In this document: positions 2,237 through 41,134 of the stretch, piece after piece
How positions within the stretch are numbered: position 1 is the first letter of the stretch
How the letters are laid out: each line of letters opens with the position of its first letter
Program-made: the position numbers and the translations under genes
Source of the DNA: Clostridia bacterium
GTDB lineage: Bacteria > Bacillota > Clostridia > Christensenellales > Christensenellaceae
DNA: 64,000 nt
Direction: 5' to 3'
NCBI GenBank assembly: GCA_014805015.1
Contig: JAAUYQ010000093.1
Span: 62,001 to 126,000, forward strand
The notes under the pieces: generated by a model
Seen by the model: only the letters and a program-made list of their open reading frames with translations
The model's database searches: none
Told to the model about the DNA's origin: nothing

Positions 2237-2280
2237 AAAAATGCGGCTCCCGGCCGAAGCCTGGTTGCCGCGCTCCTTTC
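2237..2280 (-). repeat. Hairpin between ribosome-binding site and ispA start (weak member of the IscB-end family)
   Basis: Read on the minus strand: AAAGGAG, one base, GCGGC, an inner loop with a TTCG-capped stem, GCCGC, six bases (ATTTTT), then the ispA ATGA. The outer arms are 2267-2271 and 2243-2247. The geometry equals that of the three clearer copies in front of the M24 peptidase, hslV and gatA: SD plus one base, GCGG-type outer stem, exactly six bases, ATGA. The inner sequence is shorter and lacks the TTCCTCC-like stretch, so common descent is inferred from layout rather than sequence. It could be an unrelated leader hairpin. Confidence 0.5.
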
Positions 2281-8086: not shown

Positions 8087-8240
8087 CAACTCGCGGCAAG
8101 GAGACTCCCGCCTCCTTAAGGCGGGGGAGGAATTGCCGCCTGCCTCCTTATGTCAGAGCAGTCTCCATCCTCCAGTATGAACGACGTTCCGCAGCTTGGA
8201 GACAGCATTGCTCCTGCCGCCCGGTTCGCGCGGTTGTCCA
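8087..8240 (-). mobile_element. IscB/HEARO-type element 3'-end remnant upstream of the M24 peptidase gene
   Basis: Minus strand: AAGGAGG (8143-8149), three bases, GCGGCAA, inner hairpin CCCGCCT/AGGCGGG, TTGCCGC (outer arms 8133-8139 and 8093-8099), six bases, ATGA. Upstream, about 90 bases can be read in broken frames as the end of an IscB-type protein: RNVVHTGGWRLL resembles the family's C-terminal RLLQ-ADGY-Y block, and RQFLPRLKEAGVSLPR follows through the hairpin. No N-terminal part or RNA scaffold is recognisable. Identity rests on the shared end structure with the better preserved copy at 14985-15493. Confidence 0.65.
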
Positions 8241-9714: not shown

Positions 9715-10926
9715 TCACTGGGCGTTCTCCGCGTCCCAGGCCGTCCATGCCGGCCGCCACTGCTCAACAAGAGCCTCATGCTCTTCGAATGTGCGGCTGA
9801 ACGCGAGCGTTCCTTCCTCCGGATCCGTCAGCGTGAAGTACAGGTATCCCTCATCGAGGAAGTCCTCGTCCGGGTAGAGCGCCGCCACGATGGCCGCCCG
9901 TCCCGGGTTGCAGATCGGACCGGCCGGCAGTCCGGTCCGGACATGTGTATTGTACGGATTCTCTGCCTGCAGTTCATCGCTCGTCAGGTTGATGCGGTTT
10001 GTTATTCCCAGCCCGTAGCTCACTGTCGCATCGGACTGCAGCGGCATGTCTTCGGCAAGACGGTTGTGGAAGACTGCGGAGACCTGGGCAAACTGCTCGG
10101 TCTTGGCCTCCTTTTCAATGATGCTGGCCAGCGTGATCACCTCATCCTGCGTCATATGGAGCTCGGCGGCCCGCTGCTGCAGATCCTCGGTGAAAATCTC
10201 GTCAAACCGTGCCAGCTGTCTTCTGACAACCTCAGCCGGATCCGAAGATGTGTAGAACTCGTAGGTGTCAGGAAACAGGTACCCTTCAAGCAGATAGGCA
10301 CGTCCTGACGTATCCAGGTCCGGGTCAAGCAGCGCGGCAGGCAGCGTCACGCCTTTGCCCGTCACGCACACCTCCTGGTAGCCGCCGCTGCCGTCAATCA
10401 CACCGTTGTCGCTGAGAATAGTGCCGAAGGCGTTGATTGTCAGGCCTTCAGGCAGCGTAACCTTGGCCGTCGGCGCCGCATCCGTGCTCTGCCGCAGGGT
10501 GTAGATAATGTCATCAAAATCCATCCCCTTGGTCAGGGTGTAGGTGCCGGCCTTCAGTTTTGAGGCGTTGTCGGTAAAGTCGGTATAAAACTTGAAGACC
10601 TGCTTGTTGCGGATCAGATTGTTTTCGTAGAGAATTTCCGAAATATCCGACAGGGACGACCCTTTGGGTATGGTTACCTCCACTCCCGCCAGGCTTCCGG
10701 GCTCCACCGGCTCCAGGTACCGCTCACGCACGTCGCGGTACAGGTAGAAGGCAGCACCGCCCACAATCGCCAGCGCAATCACCGCAATCACAATCGGACG
10801 GAAAAAACCCCACGAACTGCTGCGCTTCTTCTGTTCCTCCGGCTCAGGCACCGGCTGCGGGACCGGGATCTGACCGGGTCGGTCATCAAGGCGCCGCCGC
10901 TCGCTTCTTTCCTGCTGCTCCGCCAA
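9715..10926 (-). CDS. mltG: Endolytic peptidoglycan transglycosylase MltG (YceG-like)
   Basis: About 403 residues. A charged, Pro-rich cytoplasmic N terminus is followed by one transmembrane segment (about residues 40-60) and an extracytoplasmic YceG domain. Catalytic-region motifs are visible: ASIIEKEAK with the active glutamate, QSDATVSYGLG, and NPYNTHVRTGLPAGPICNPG. MltG cuts nascent glycan strands and sets their length. The TTG at 10926 is chosen because GGAGGAG lies seven bases upstream; an ATG at 10968 overlaps ylbF and adds a non-conserved extension. It is placed just after the ylbF stop. Confidence 0.93.
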   Translation of the reverse strand: MAEQQERSERRRLDDRPGQIPVPQPVPEPEEQKKRSSSWGFFRPIVIAVIALAIVGGAAFYLYRDVRERYLEPVEPGSLAGVEVTIPKGSSLSDISEILYENNLIRNKQVFKFYTDFTDNASKLKAGTYTLTKGMDFDDIIYTLRQSTDAAPTAKVTLPEGLTINAFGTILSDNGVIDGSGGYQEVCVTGKGVTLPAALLDPDLDTSGRAYLLEGYLFPDTYEFYTSSDPAEVVRRQLARFDEIFTEDLQQRAAELHMTQDEVITLASIIEKEAKTEQFAQVSAVFHNRLAEDMPLQSDATVSYGLGITNRINLTSDELQAENPYNTHVRTGLPAGPICNPGRAAIVAALYPDEDFLDEGYLYFTLTDPEEGTLAFSRTFEEHEALVEQWRPAWTAWDAENAQ

Positions 10927-14984: not shown

Positions 14985-14990
14985 TTGCTT

Positions 14991-15040
14991 GCGGGATGGA
15001 TACTCGTGACTTCAGTCATGAGAGGAAATCCCGCACCTCC
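14991..15040 (-). repeat. Terminal hairpin of the IscB-type element, copy at hslV
   Basis: Outer stem GCGGGAT/ATCCCGC (15028-15034 and 14991-14997) encloses an eight-bp inner stem with a four-base loop (15003-15022). GGAGG (15036-15040), preceded by AAA, sits one base before the outer stem; six bases separate the stem from ATGA at 14984. The same plan occurs at 8093-8149, 41014-41068 and 15500-15546, with different inner loops but compensating arms. Confidence 0.8.
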
Positions 15041-15240
15041 TTTGCTTGCAGATATCCTCTTGGTTCCTCCAGGAGTCTGAGCTTCTTGCACATGACACCA
15101 TCTGTGACTTTCTTCCACTAGAATGCCTTCAGAGCGAATGAGCCTGTCGTGCGCCGCCCCGAAGCATTCTTCCGACCTTCCCGTACCGTTCTGTCGGTAT
15201 GAGAGGCTTTCCGTCTTTGTTCAGTACATAGACCAGGTAA
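15036..15240 (-). pseudogene. iscB/isrB-like remnant (N- and C-terminal fragments joined by a deletion)
   Basis: One frame reads VYVLNKDGKPLIPTERYGKV then GRMLRGG before a stop at about 15125. This matches the N terminus of IscB/IsrB proteins, whose PLMP domain has the form YVLN-DGKPLMPT---KVRRLL. The start codon appears mutated (CTG in place of ATG). About ten bases later another frame reads CKKLRLLEEPRGYLQ then EVRDFLS, resembling the family C terminus just before the end hairpin. The RuvC and HNH regions between are gone, so IscB and IsrB cannot be told apart. Confidence 0.7.
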
Positions 15241-15493
15241 GTAAGTCTCCTCGCGGAGTAGCGCAGCCATCGCCAGGGATGTTCCGGGGCTTAGTGCATA
15301 CAGCACTGTCCCTACCCATCAGGACTGTTTAACCATATGCCGCAGAGCTCCGGACTCGGCTGCAGATCCAAAGATGCCTGTTTCCCGGATGACGACGCAG
15401 CCATCTCTGCCCCGACCAATCACGTACCGGCTGACTGAGGCTCGTCAAGTACGGGCTTTTTCAAGCCCGTGACTTCAGATGTGGGTGCTTGAC
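15241..15493 (-). ncRNA. HEARO/omegaRNA-like structured RNA region
   Basis: The 250 bases directly upstream of the IscB-like start have no ORF with protein-like features and several nested helices. GTCAAG/CTTGAC (15488-15493 with 15444-15449) encloses ACGGGCT/AGCCCGT (15464-15470 with 15451-15457). Further in, CAGCC can pair with GGCTG around a purine-rich loop that includes GTGATTGGTCGGGGC. Location, size and this motif-rich purine segment are as expected for HEARO, the guide-RNA scaffold of IscB systems. Assignment is by position and memory of the class; no covariance search was run. In a decayed element it may no longer be expressed. Confidence 0.6.
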
Positions 15494-15604
15494 TCGGATG
15501 CGGCCTCGGGACTCCCGCATCCGGCGGGTGAGGAAACCGCTCCTCCTCACGTTTGTCTGGCTCCATCCGCCTTCAGGCGGATTCCTTTGCGTCGGCCTGC
15601 CTGC
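15494..15604 (-). mobile_element. Older IscB-type 3'-end remnant directly after trmFO
   Basis: Minus strand, starting at the trmFO stop: a frame reading KGIRLKADGARQT resembles the RLLQKADGYGYT C-terminal block of IscB-type proteins. Then come GAGGAGG, one base, GCGG, an inner CCCGC/GCGGG hairpin, CCGC (outer arms 15537-15540 and 15500-15503), six bases and GTCA, one base from the GTGA alternative target. The next element's RNA-like region starts exactly there. The outer stem is only four bp, so this copy is more decayed. Confidence 0.55.
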
Positions 15605-38113: not shown

Positions 38114-39535
38114 CTACTCCAGTTCCTTCCTGACGAGCTCATTGACCGTCTGCGGGTTGGCCTTGCCCTTCATCGCCTTCATGACGCGGCCGACGAAAAA
38201 GGTCAGCGCTTTCTTATTGCCGTTTCGGTAGTCCTCGGCAGGCTTGGGATTCTCGGCTACGAGCTGCCGCACCACGGCTTCAATGGCACCGGCATCGTCG
38301 ACCTGCTCAAGGCCCTTCTCTTTTACAATCTGCTCCGGATCTCCGCCGCTGCGGAAGACCTCCTCGAACACCTGCTTGCCGACGCTGGAATTGATCTTGC
38401 CGTCAGCGACCAGTCTGAGTACGGACGCGAGCTGTTCGGGCCTTACCGGATTGTCTGCCGGTTCAAGTCCCGCATCTTTCAGCAGACGCGGCAGTTCCAC
38501 CATCACATAATTGCTGACCTGCTTGGCCGGTGCTCCGAGCGCCACTGTGTCCTCAAAGAACCGGGCTGTATCTTTTGAGGCTGTCAGCAGCCGGGCATCA
38601 TACTCGGGCAGTCCTAGTTCCTCCGTGTAGCGCCGTCGCTTGGCAGCCGGCAGTTCCGGCAGGGAATCCCGGATCTGAGCGATCCGCTCATCGCTCAGAT
38701 ACACAGGGACCAGGTCAGGGTCCGGGAAGTAACGGTAGTCGTGGGCCTCTTCCTTGTCACGCATCGCGCTGGTAACGCCTTTGTCGTCATCCCAGCGCCG
38801 CGTTTCCTGGATGACCTCACCGCCATCCTCCAGGACCTCAATCTGACGCCGGCGTTCATACTCGATCGCCCGCGCCGCCGCACTGATACTGTTGATGTTC
38901 TTCAGTTCTGTGCGGGTACCGAGCTTATCCTGGCCTTCCGGCCGCACTGAGATGTTCACATCGCAGCGCATGGACCCCTCTTCCATCTTGCAGTCCGAGA
39001 CGCCGATATACTCCATGTTGCTGCGGAGGGTCTCCAGAAAGGCACGGACCTGGTCTGCATTTTCAAAGTCCGGTTCCGTGACGATCTCCATCAGGGGCAC
39101 GCCGCCGCGATTGTAGTCCACAAAACTTTCCCCGGCCTCATGCACCAGCTTGCCGGCATCTTCCTCAATATGGATGCGCGTGATGCCGATCGTGTGCGGG
39201 CCGGCATCCGTGAAGACTTCCACGCTGCCTTCGGCGCAGAGCGGATAGTCATACTGCGAGATCTGGTATGCCTTGGCAAGATCGGGATAGAAGTAGCCCT
39301 TGCGGTCAAGCTTCGAGTAGTTCGGAATCCGGCAGTTGAGGGCCAGGCCGGCCCGCACGCCGTATTCCACCGCTTTCTCATTCAGAACCGGCAGCGTGCC
39401 CGGCATCGACAGGCATACCGGACAGACATTCGTGTTGGGAGCATCTCCAAACTCGTTGCGGCAGCCGCAGAAAATCTTCGTCTCGGTATCCATTTCCACG
39501 TGGACCTCGAGACCAATAACGGTTTCGTATTTCAC
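38114..39535 (-). CDS. gatB: Asp-tRNA(Asn)/Glu-tRNA(Gln) amidotransferase subunit B
   Basis: 473 residues. GLEVHVEMDTETKIFCGC and FGDAPNTNVCPVCLSMPG carry the zinc ligands and phosphorylation site region. The C-terminal GatB/Yqey helical domain (about 325-473) binds tRNA. With GatA and GatC it converts Glu-tRNA(Gln) to Gln-tRNA(Gln). Its start overlaps gatA by four bases. Confidence 0.97.
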   Translation of the reverse strand: MKYETVIGLEVHVEMDTETKIFCGCRNEFGDAPNTNVCPVCLSMPGTLPVLNEKAVEYGVRAGLALNCRIPNYSKLDRKGYFYPDLAKAYQISQYDYPLCAEGSVEVFTDAGPHTIGITRIHIEEDAGKLVHEAGESFVDYNRGGVPLMEIVTEPDFENADQVRAFLETLRSNMEYIGVSDCKMEEGSMRCDVNISVRPEGQDKLGTRTELKNINSISAAARAIEYERRRQIEVLEDGGEVIQETRRWDDDKGVTSAMRDKEEAHDYRYFPDPDLVPVYLSDERIAQIRDSLPELPAAKRRRYTEELGLPEYDARLLTASKDTARFFEDTVALGAPAKQVSNYVMVELPRLLKDAGLEPADNPVRPEQLASVLRLVADGKINSSVGKQVFEEVFRSGGDPEQIVKEKGLEQVDDAGAIEAVVRQLVAENPKPAEDYRNGNKKALTFFVGRVMKAMKGKANPQTVNELVRKELE

Positions 39536-41007
39536 TGAGCCTCCTCCTTCCCGGTGCCCAGGGCAGGTCTGGCAGAAAACCCAAGCGCGCGCTCCAGATT
39601 CCAGGCTGCCCGCAGCAGTGTGTTTTCCGCAAAAGCATCGGAAATCAGCTGCACGGAAAGCGGCAGCCCGTCGTCTGTGACACCGCTCGGCAGCGTAAGT
39701 GCACAGTTGCCGGCAATATTGACCGGCACGGTGAACAGATCGTTCACATACATCTCCAGCGGCGTCGCCTTCGCCCCGAGCCGGAAGGCCGGCGTCGGCG
39801 CTGCCGGGGAAAGCAGCACGTCGCAGTCGGCGAAGACCCTGGCAAAGTCCCGGCGGATCAGCGTTTTCACGCGGAGCGCCTTCAGATAGTAGGCGTCATA
39901 GTAACCGGCGCTGAGCACGTAGTTGCCGAGCATGATGCGCCGCTTGACCTCGCTGCCAAAGCCTTCAGTGCGTGTGCGCTTGTACATGTCGCGGTATCCT
40001 TCGTAGTCGGACGCACGGAAACCATAGCGGATGCCGTCATACCGGGACAGGTTGGAGGCTGCCTCTGCCGACGCGATGATATAGTAGGCCGAGAGCGCAT
40101 AATCGAAGGTCGGCAGACTCGTCTCCACAATCTGCGCACCCAGTTCCCGGAGAAGTCTGATGGCGTTCTCATAGGAAGCCATGACCTGCGGATCCACGTC
40201 CTGCGACAGGTACTCTTTCGGCAGGCCCACACGCAGGCCCTCGATGCCGTCCTTCATCCCCCGGCCGTAGTCCGGGTATTCCGTGATCGCGGACGTGGAA
40301 TCGCGCGGATCGTGGCCCGCAATGACGCTCAGCACCTCAGCCGCATCCTCCACCGTCTTGGTCAGCGGCCCGATCTGATCAAGTGAGGAAGCAAACGCCA
40401 TCAGGCCGTAGCGGGAAACGGTGCCGTAAGTCGGTTTGAGTCCCACAACTCCGCAGAAGGCGGCCGGCTGCCGTACAGATCCGCCGGTATCCGAACCCAG
40501 GGCAAAGATGCCTTCGTCCGCTGCAACCGCGGCAGCGCTGCCGCCGGAGCTGCCGCCGGAGACGCACTCCGGATTCCAGGGGTTCCGAGCGGTGCCGTAG
40601 TAGGATGTTTCGGTGGATGAGCCCATGGCAAATTCATCCATGTTGGCCTTACCCACGATCACGGCGCCCTCAGCCTTCAGACGCTCCACCACGGTCGCAT
40701 CGTACACCGGTGTGTAATTGCTGAGCATCTTCGATGCAGCTGTCGAGAGCACACCGCGCGTGCAGATATTGTCTTTTATCACGACCGGAATGCCGAGCAG
40801 TCTCTTGTCCGAACCCTGCCGGCGCTGTTCATCTGCCCGGCGCGCCTCTTCGAGCGCCTGGTCGGCGCAGATGGTCACCAGGGCATTCAGCTGCCCTTCG
40901 GCGGCGGCTGCCTGGTCGAGACAGGCCTGCGTCAGCTCCACAGCAGATACTTCTCCCTCGGCAAGCGCCTGCTGCGCCTGTTTCAGGTTCATCGCGTTTG
41001 GCTTCAT
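39532..41007 (-). CDS. gatA: Asp-tRNA(Asn)/Glu-tRNA(Gln) amidotransferase subunit A
   Basis: 491 residues, amidase-signature enzyme supplying ammonia from glutamine. The triad is Lys in VVIKDNICTRG, and two Ser in CVSGGSSGGSAAAV and GSDTGGSVRQPAAF. ATG 41007 (ATGAAG) is used; an ATG five codons in is also in frame. The start codon abuts the terminal hairpin of an element remnant that separates gatA from gatC, so its original ribosome-binding site is displaced. Confidence 0.96.
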   Translation of the reverse strand: MKPNAMNLKQAQQALAEGEVSAVELTQACLDQAAAAEGQLNALVTICADQALEEARRADEQRRQGSDKRLLGIPVVIKDNICTRGVLSTAASKMLSNYTPVYDATVVERLKAEGAVIVGKANMDEFAMGSSTETSYYGTARNPWNPECVSGGSSGGSAAAVAADEGIFALGSDTGGSVRQPAAFCGVVGLKPTYGTVSRYGLMAFASSLDQIGPLTKTVEDAAEVLSVIAGHDPRDSTSAITEYPDYGRGMKDGIEGLRVGLPKEYLSQDVDPQVMASYENAIRLLRELGAQIVETSLPTFDYALSAYYIIASAEAASNLSRYDGIRYGFRASDYEGYRDMYKRTRTEGFGSEVKRRIMLGNYVLSAGYYDAYYLKALRVKTLIRRDFARVFADCDVLLSPAAPTPAFRLGAKATPLEMYVNDLFTVPVNIAGNCALTLPSGVTDDGLPLSVQLISDAFAENTLLRAAWNLERALGFSARPALGTGKEEAQ

Positions 41008-41134
41008 CCACTTGCGGCAAAGAGACGACCGCCTGAAGATGGCGGGGGAGGATCCTTGCCGCCCCTCCTTTGTCTATCCTGTCTGCGAGTCCGCTGCGGC
41101 TAAGCGCGGACGCCTCCCTGTGCGTGACGGCTGT
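41008..41134 (-). mobile_element. IscB-type 3'-end remnant between gatC and gatA
   Basis: The 127-base gap splits the gatC-gatA pair. Minus strand: AAAGGAGG, one base, GCGGCAA, inner CCGCC/GGCGG hairpin, TTGCCGC (outer arms 41056-41062 and 41014-41020), six bases, ATGA of gatA. Upstream, RPRLAAADSQTG can be read in one frame, recalling the RLLQ-ADGY-Y end of IscB-type proteins. Outer stem GCGGCAA/TTGCCGC is identical to the copy at 8093-8139. Most of the element is gone. Confidence 0.6.

Follow-up and report, generated by a model that had tools for sequence, protein, structure and literature searches.

In the present study, the hairpins that precede the start codons of an M24 peptidase gene, hslV, and gatA in the window (the whole stretch of 64,000 nucleotides that was analysed) were assigned by sequence comparison to the right ends of IscB/HEARO (omegaRNA) transposons or to solo or decayed remnants of these ends. 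We consider it probable that the end of such a transposon re-establishes initiation at whichever start codon the element lands on, and that the host gene then depends on this end. The identity of the element, its position, the lack of a linear Shine-Dalgarno (SD) sequence, and conservation were each established in the present study, kinship with the element being unproven at ispA. We infer from the sequences that translation uses the bridged SD, i.e. the SD brought close to the start codon by the folded hairpin, during initiation.

Geometry of the four sites and identity of the element

The original prediction described one minus-strand geometry at the starts of ispA, the M24 peptidase gene, hslV, and gatA: GGAG(G) is followed, 1-3 nt on, by a GCGG-type stem enclosing an inner hairpin, and exactly 6 nt separate this from ATGA. 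This geometry was present at all four sites, and the distance from the SD to ATG with the hairpin collapsed was measured as 7-9 nt, as had been claimed. The four sites had also been regarded as copies of a single element. We used a covariance model, R1, which was built from the hairpin and spacer only, without the SD and without ATGA (one outer pair was written one column off, with no visible effect). R1 recovered three of the four copies (M24, hslV, and gatA; E 1e-16 to 3e-11), and the claim of a single element holds for these three. The ispA copy gave no R1 match in the window scan even at E 10 with the filters off; therefore, its kinship with the element is unproven, and it may be an analogue or too decayed for kinship to be told. 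The duplex energies of the ispA copy were -7.9 kcal/mol for the bridged SD and -6.6 kcal/mol for the linear SD. The features of the window are as follows.

2237..2276, minus strand: ispA leader with the SD-hairpin-6 nt-ATGA geometry, kinship unproven (GGAG 2276-2273, 1 nt, hairpin 2271-2243, 6 nt, ATGA with ATG 2236-2234; from sequence, no R1 match at E 10)
8087..8139, minus strand: M24 right-end hairpin (8139-8093) and 6-nt spacer, followed by ATGA (ATG 8086-8084) (R1 E 1.4e-16; PF00557)
8143..8147, minus strand: M24 SD GGAGG, 3 nt before the hairpin (sequence; anti-SD duplex scoring)
14985..15034, minus strand: hslV right-end hairpin (15034-14991) and 6-nt spacer, followed by ATGA (ATG 14984-14982) (R1 E 1.1e-12; hairpin identical at rapZ and murG)
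15036..15040, minus strand: hslV SD GGAGG, 1 nt before the hairpin (sequence; anti-SD duplex scoring)
15041..15257, minus strand: iscB remnant, internally deleted, between HEARO and the right end of the hslV element (comparison with the intact iscB of L016)
15258..15493, minus strand: HEARO (omegaRNA), left end of the hslV element (RF02033, 95.9 bits)
15494..15546, minus strand: older hairpin resembling a right end, which has its own GGAGG and abuts the hslV HEARO on its left side (weak R1 match at 15494-15540, E 0.03; sequence)
39532..41007, minus strand: gatA gene (Amidase, PF01425), start ATGA (ATG 41007-41005) (Pfam 1e-162; orthologues with a plain SD)
41008..41062, minus strand: gatA right-end hairpin (41062-41014) of an IscB element and 6-nt spacer (R1 E 3e-11; genome copies)
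41064..41068, minus strand: gatA SD GGAGG, supplied by the element, 1 nt before the hairpin (sequence; anti-SD duplex -12.1 kcal/mol)

The start codon of hslV was probably hit twice by insertions, the older end being that to the left of HEARO. Upstream of the gatA copy, GGGAGG-C-GTCCGC...GCGGAC (41083-41118, minus strand) resembles a still older end by eye; the R1 model did not recognise this candidate hairpin in the window scan.

R1 gave 48 genome matches at E <= 1, and HEARO (RF02033) gave 15-16; the HEARO in the window adjoins the hslV copy directly upstream. A comparison of the HEARO loci revealed the full element: it starts with the HEARO 5' end (GTCAAG...), continues with iscB, and closes with AAGGAGG, the hairpin, and a spacer of about 6 nt, next to which lies NTGA. 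The IscB proteins of L016 and L013 contain PF14239 (RRXRR) and PF01844 (HNH), while the window holds remnants only. R1 matches were common to full elements and to the gatA, M24, and hslV copies; HEARO is joined to the right end in deleted versions at pth (L021) and hslV (L010), and solo copies, such as that at gatA, are without HEARO. Since HEARO and iscB are tied to the same ends in this genome comparison, the M24, hslV, and gatA hairpins represent right ends of IscB elements or solo remnants of these, and the earlier view of them as ends of a mobile element gains a specific identity. The element SD, AAAGGAGG, is located within the 3' end of iscB or just after it. The hairpin of these transposon ends is 42-56 nt long, and the spacer to the start is about 6-9 nt across elements. 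Rfam holds no family for the right-end hairpin itself. Known IscB/HEARO (OMEGA, ISC) transposons are alike in their left-end HEARO omegaRNA, RRXRR-HNH IscB, right-end hairpin, and NTGA beside the right end. HEARO insertion beside ATGA or GTGA was reportedly noted in the original HEARO work.

The right end and HEARO were absent from 17 genomes of the same family belonging to other genera. In related genera, the orthologues of hslV (14) and gatA (11) have ordinary close SDs, mostly GGAGG-like, and no hairpin precedes them; the gap between gatC and gatA is about 10-20 nt in relatives versus 127 nt here. Relatives without the element consequently do not share the hairpins at these two genes, in agreement with the original prediction.

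Other sequences related to these elements were also noted. The genome carries two PF01797 proteins, which are Y1 (IS200-like) transposases (L148 1387-1875 on G000:C14 and L147 1492-1989 on G000:C58); one is divergent and located ~1 kb from the C14 element end. Either of them may mobilise the IscB elements in trans. A second IscB subtype (L024 at about 200-275; G000:C11 near 9900-9975) has AGGAG, a CGGCGC...GCGCCG hairpin, a 10-nt spacer, and ATGG instead of ATGA. Moreover, five related ends are SD-less (L065 348-411, L067, L070, L071, and L073; G000 C29, C95, C18, C15, and C50): their hairpin, GCGCAATTCCTCC..., is preceded by CTATAGAG and followed by TTGA or TGGA, and they are mostly away from gene starts. 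These ends may serve as a natural comparison group for the ends with an SD. In L016/L048, iscB stops at the TGA of ATGA, but this is not taken to be the normal arrangement, since the copy seems to be frameshifted near its 3' end.

Positions of the ends relative to start codons

The counted set of 42 SD-type copies comprised the 48 R1 matches minus the five SD-less ends, one weak intragenic match in the window, and one match at a contig end, plus the ispA copy. The SD-less GCGCAATTCC type (C29:348, C95, C18, C15, and C50) was thus kept out of the counts. ATGA, GTGA, or TTGA came next after nearly all of the 42 copies, and in our own classification 34 of them occupied a gene-start position. The window contains 1484 NTGA sites and 56 crudely called genes, so that gene starts can account for < 4% of NTGA sites. 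The claim that the element lands on start codons is therefore supported by a frequency far above chance. Since 100 codons or more are open at 27% of NTGA sites in this GC-rich genome, the length of an ORF by itself says little about whether a gene starts there, and we relied on Pfam matches from the N-terminus. The downstream genes were mostly confirmed by Pfam, usually from the first residues; they include pth, murG, ddl, cdsA, pyrF, rapZ, rlmH, hslV, and gatA as well as genes for a TtcA-like PP-loop protein, NIF3, DUF1385, an LMW phosphatase, PGM, an FGGY kinase, and others. The exceptions were a doublet before a 13-codon ORF, one copy at no NTGA, and a few copies before short ORFs. The likely start of rimO is 4 nt past ATGA.

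It is very improbable, in our opinion, that the ends lie near genes by coincidence and that the true starts of these genes are other codons served by ordinary ribosome-binding sites. The few copies inside genes or at no gene would be expected by this explanation, and alternative in-frame starts with a linear SD were found for 4 of the 36 genes. However, for 32 of the 36 genes no other start with an SD lies nearby, the spacing and the SD are conserved, and the proportion of gene starts among NTGA sites, about 4% at most, is far from the 34 of 42 observed. The original prediction, which could have failed on alternative starts, stands on this point.

Two copies that appear recent are intragenic: one lies at L034 position 1553 (G000:C9:41280) in an AraC-type gene and the other at L035 position 120 (G000:C10:120) in an aldo/keto reductase gene, at internal ATGA/GTGA. 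Because these two youngest-looking copies are intragenic, the findings suggest that NTGA in general is targeted and that the enrichment at start codons arises at least partly by selection. Simple avoidance of genes cannot alone produce the pattern because landing between an SD and its start should normally be harmful unless the element compensates.

Shine-Dalgarno retention and predicted folds

A bridged SD was scored by a fixed rule that demanded an anti-SD duplex of <= -7 kcal/mol and a stem of >= 5 pairs whose end lies 4-10 nt upstream of the start. By this rule, a bridged SD is present in 33 of the 39 scored element copies and a linear SD in none, in accordance with the earlier claim that the linear SD is too far from the start. 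Among 39 other crudely ORF-called starts of the window, none was bridged and 13 had a linear SD; 40 of 1483 control NTGA sites of the window (2.7%) were bridged. Anti-SD binding of the element copies amounts to 8-13 kcal/mol. In the hairpin, 13 of 16 pairs changed on both sides, a covariation exceeding that in every shuffled and slid control. Such covariation is not in itself proof of a role of the RNA because a DNA hairpin for transposition would covary too.

The SD and hairpin remained in 22 decayed copies in which the former iscB sequence was randomised. The pairwise identity of these old copies upstream of the SD was 0.27, i.e. random, whereas the SD core was kept in all 22 (chance about 0.10). 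Their hairpin arms were about 0.7-0.8 identical, a value biased by detection; the SD is absent from the R1 model, yet it shares its ancestry with the hairpin. Moreover, the SD was kept in 34 of 34 copies at gene starts versus four of eight elsewhere (Fisher p 6e-4).

These results bear on an alternative in which the end, GGAGG included, is only a DNA-level transposition signal and the host gene owes its translation to coupling or reinitiation by ribosomes that have read iscB or an upstream gene and terminate within or close to the hairpin. Stop codons of iscB do occur within or just before the hairpin in many elements, and TTCCTCC and GTNTCC, the internal loops, show more conservation than bridging requires. 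Nevertheless, decayed solo copies keep the SD without any iscB, copies away from genes lose it (the other four of the eight above), and the SD is present where iscB ends before it (L023); we regard this alternative as unlikely. In intact copies, ribosomes that reinitiate after reading iscB or upstream genes could play an additional part.

Structure prediction of the leaders gave a mixed picture of the bridging fold. In most copies, this fold is predicted to lie 0-5 kcal/mol above the minimum, and the SD is predicted to be open at hslV, rapZ, murG, and several others. A competing predicted fold, in which the SD pairs with the element's own CCTCC, occurs in several to many copies. At gatA, this SD-hiding fold is favoured over the bridging fold by a predicted 2.8 kcal/mol, and the gap is larger in a few others; the SD is predicted to be largely paired, with the bridging fold disfavoured, in gatA, rimO, L002, and C6. 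Anti-SD binding could pay for opening the SD-hiding fold. The four leaders with a largely paired SD, the small difference of a few kcal/mol between both folds in many copies, and the retention of CCTC in most decayed copies are also consistent with a regulatory switch, in which the SD is paired with the element CCTCC (off) or bridged (on), perhaps under the control of upstream translation. We consider such a switch improbable: the open leaders named above do not fit it, the ispA copy is without CCTCC, and a conserved ligand site or regulon was not evident.

Proposed mechanism, known systems, and other phyla

We propose that the element inserts immediately 5' of NTGA, which is here nearly always a start codon followed by A, so that the native SD would be separated from this codon. 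At its very end, the element carries a new SD, a covarying hairpin, and about 6-9 nt, and folding of the hairpin would place the new SD 7-9 nt from the start codon. The SD spacing would thereby be restored and, with it, initiation, such that insertions would be tolerated and the host gene may stay switched on. With the native SD displaced, the host gene would come to depend on the SD and hairpin of the element, which outlast the decay of omegaRNA and iscB. That the terminal hairpin restores initiation, as originally proposed, is favoured by the placement and conservation of the SD; bridging itself is deduced, and the competing fold at gatA points the other way. We also lean, with somewhat less confidence than for the window copies, towards a broader reading: IscB transposons as a class may carry a built-in replacement ribosome-binding site, made up of the SD and the bridging hairpin and overlapping iscB at its 3' end, that is matched to start-codon-like NTGA, allowing low-cost occupation even of essential genes, where the ends would become indispensable leaders. 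The OMEGA element might re-cut empty start sites, which fits the NTGA TAM of DtIsrB, a related nickase (PMC9581776).

Bridging of a distant SD is known from T4 genes 38 and 25, in which an intervening structure cuts the linear SD spacing of 22 and 27 nt to 5 and 11 nt, respectively, and is needed for translation (PMC3014915). In those leaders, as in 33 of our 39 scored copies, the SD is too far linearly and near once folded. However, the T4 examples are single phage genes, whereas here the hairpin is the end of a repeated mobile element. IStrons are mobile elements that are harmless to the host gene through their own self-splicing RNA (PMC4227781). They are similar in that the host gene is spared through an RNA function of the mobile element itself; however, IStrons splice their RNA out, while here the leader is retained and initiation is supplied anew. 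The element family and SD bridging are both known, and their combination is the new part within the literature searched. This literature did not link IscB/HEARO ends with an SD or with systematic start-codon placement; the original HEARO, ISC, and OMEGA descriptions were outside the search, and an earlier mention is possible.

The IscB family consists of relatives of the Cas9 ancestor. If the proposed mechanism is true, it would explain the start-codon-like target/TAM of these Cas9-ancestor elements, add a translational route to transposon harmlessness beside the intron splicing of IStrons, and make dozens of naturally occurring structured ribosome-binding sites available on conserved genes. 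Host tolerance of OMEGA elements then becomes a directly testable question.

The same end was found in IscB elements of Bacillota, Pseudomonadota, and Fusobacteriota, including elements from Lachnospiraceae, Erysipelotrichaceae, Sutterella, Duodenibacillus, Parasutterella, and others. The SD-bearing end recurs among IscB elements of several phyla, a wider distribution than the original prediction had supposed. All 10 downstream proteins tested matched Pfam families, nine of them from residue 2-8. In RefSeq, an independent annotation, the ATGA is the annotated gene start in Anoxybacillus (thioredoxin), Cetobacterium (metallophosphoesterase), and Finegoldia plasmids. The SD occurs in differing iscB reading frames (RKE, ERR, and TE) or past the iscB stop (L023), and its presence in different frames argues for a constraint on the nucleic acid rather than on the protein. 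Our impression, formed without formal statistics, is that elements with a weaker SD (some in Solobacterium and Lachnospiraceae) are more often away from clear genes. Where elements of other genomes begin, a native SD can often be seen at the left junction, as at serC in Duodenibacillus (...AAGGGAGAAACCTC, then the element, then ATGAACC); -6 kcal/mol was passed by 9 of 32 left flanks versus 6.9% of control sites.
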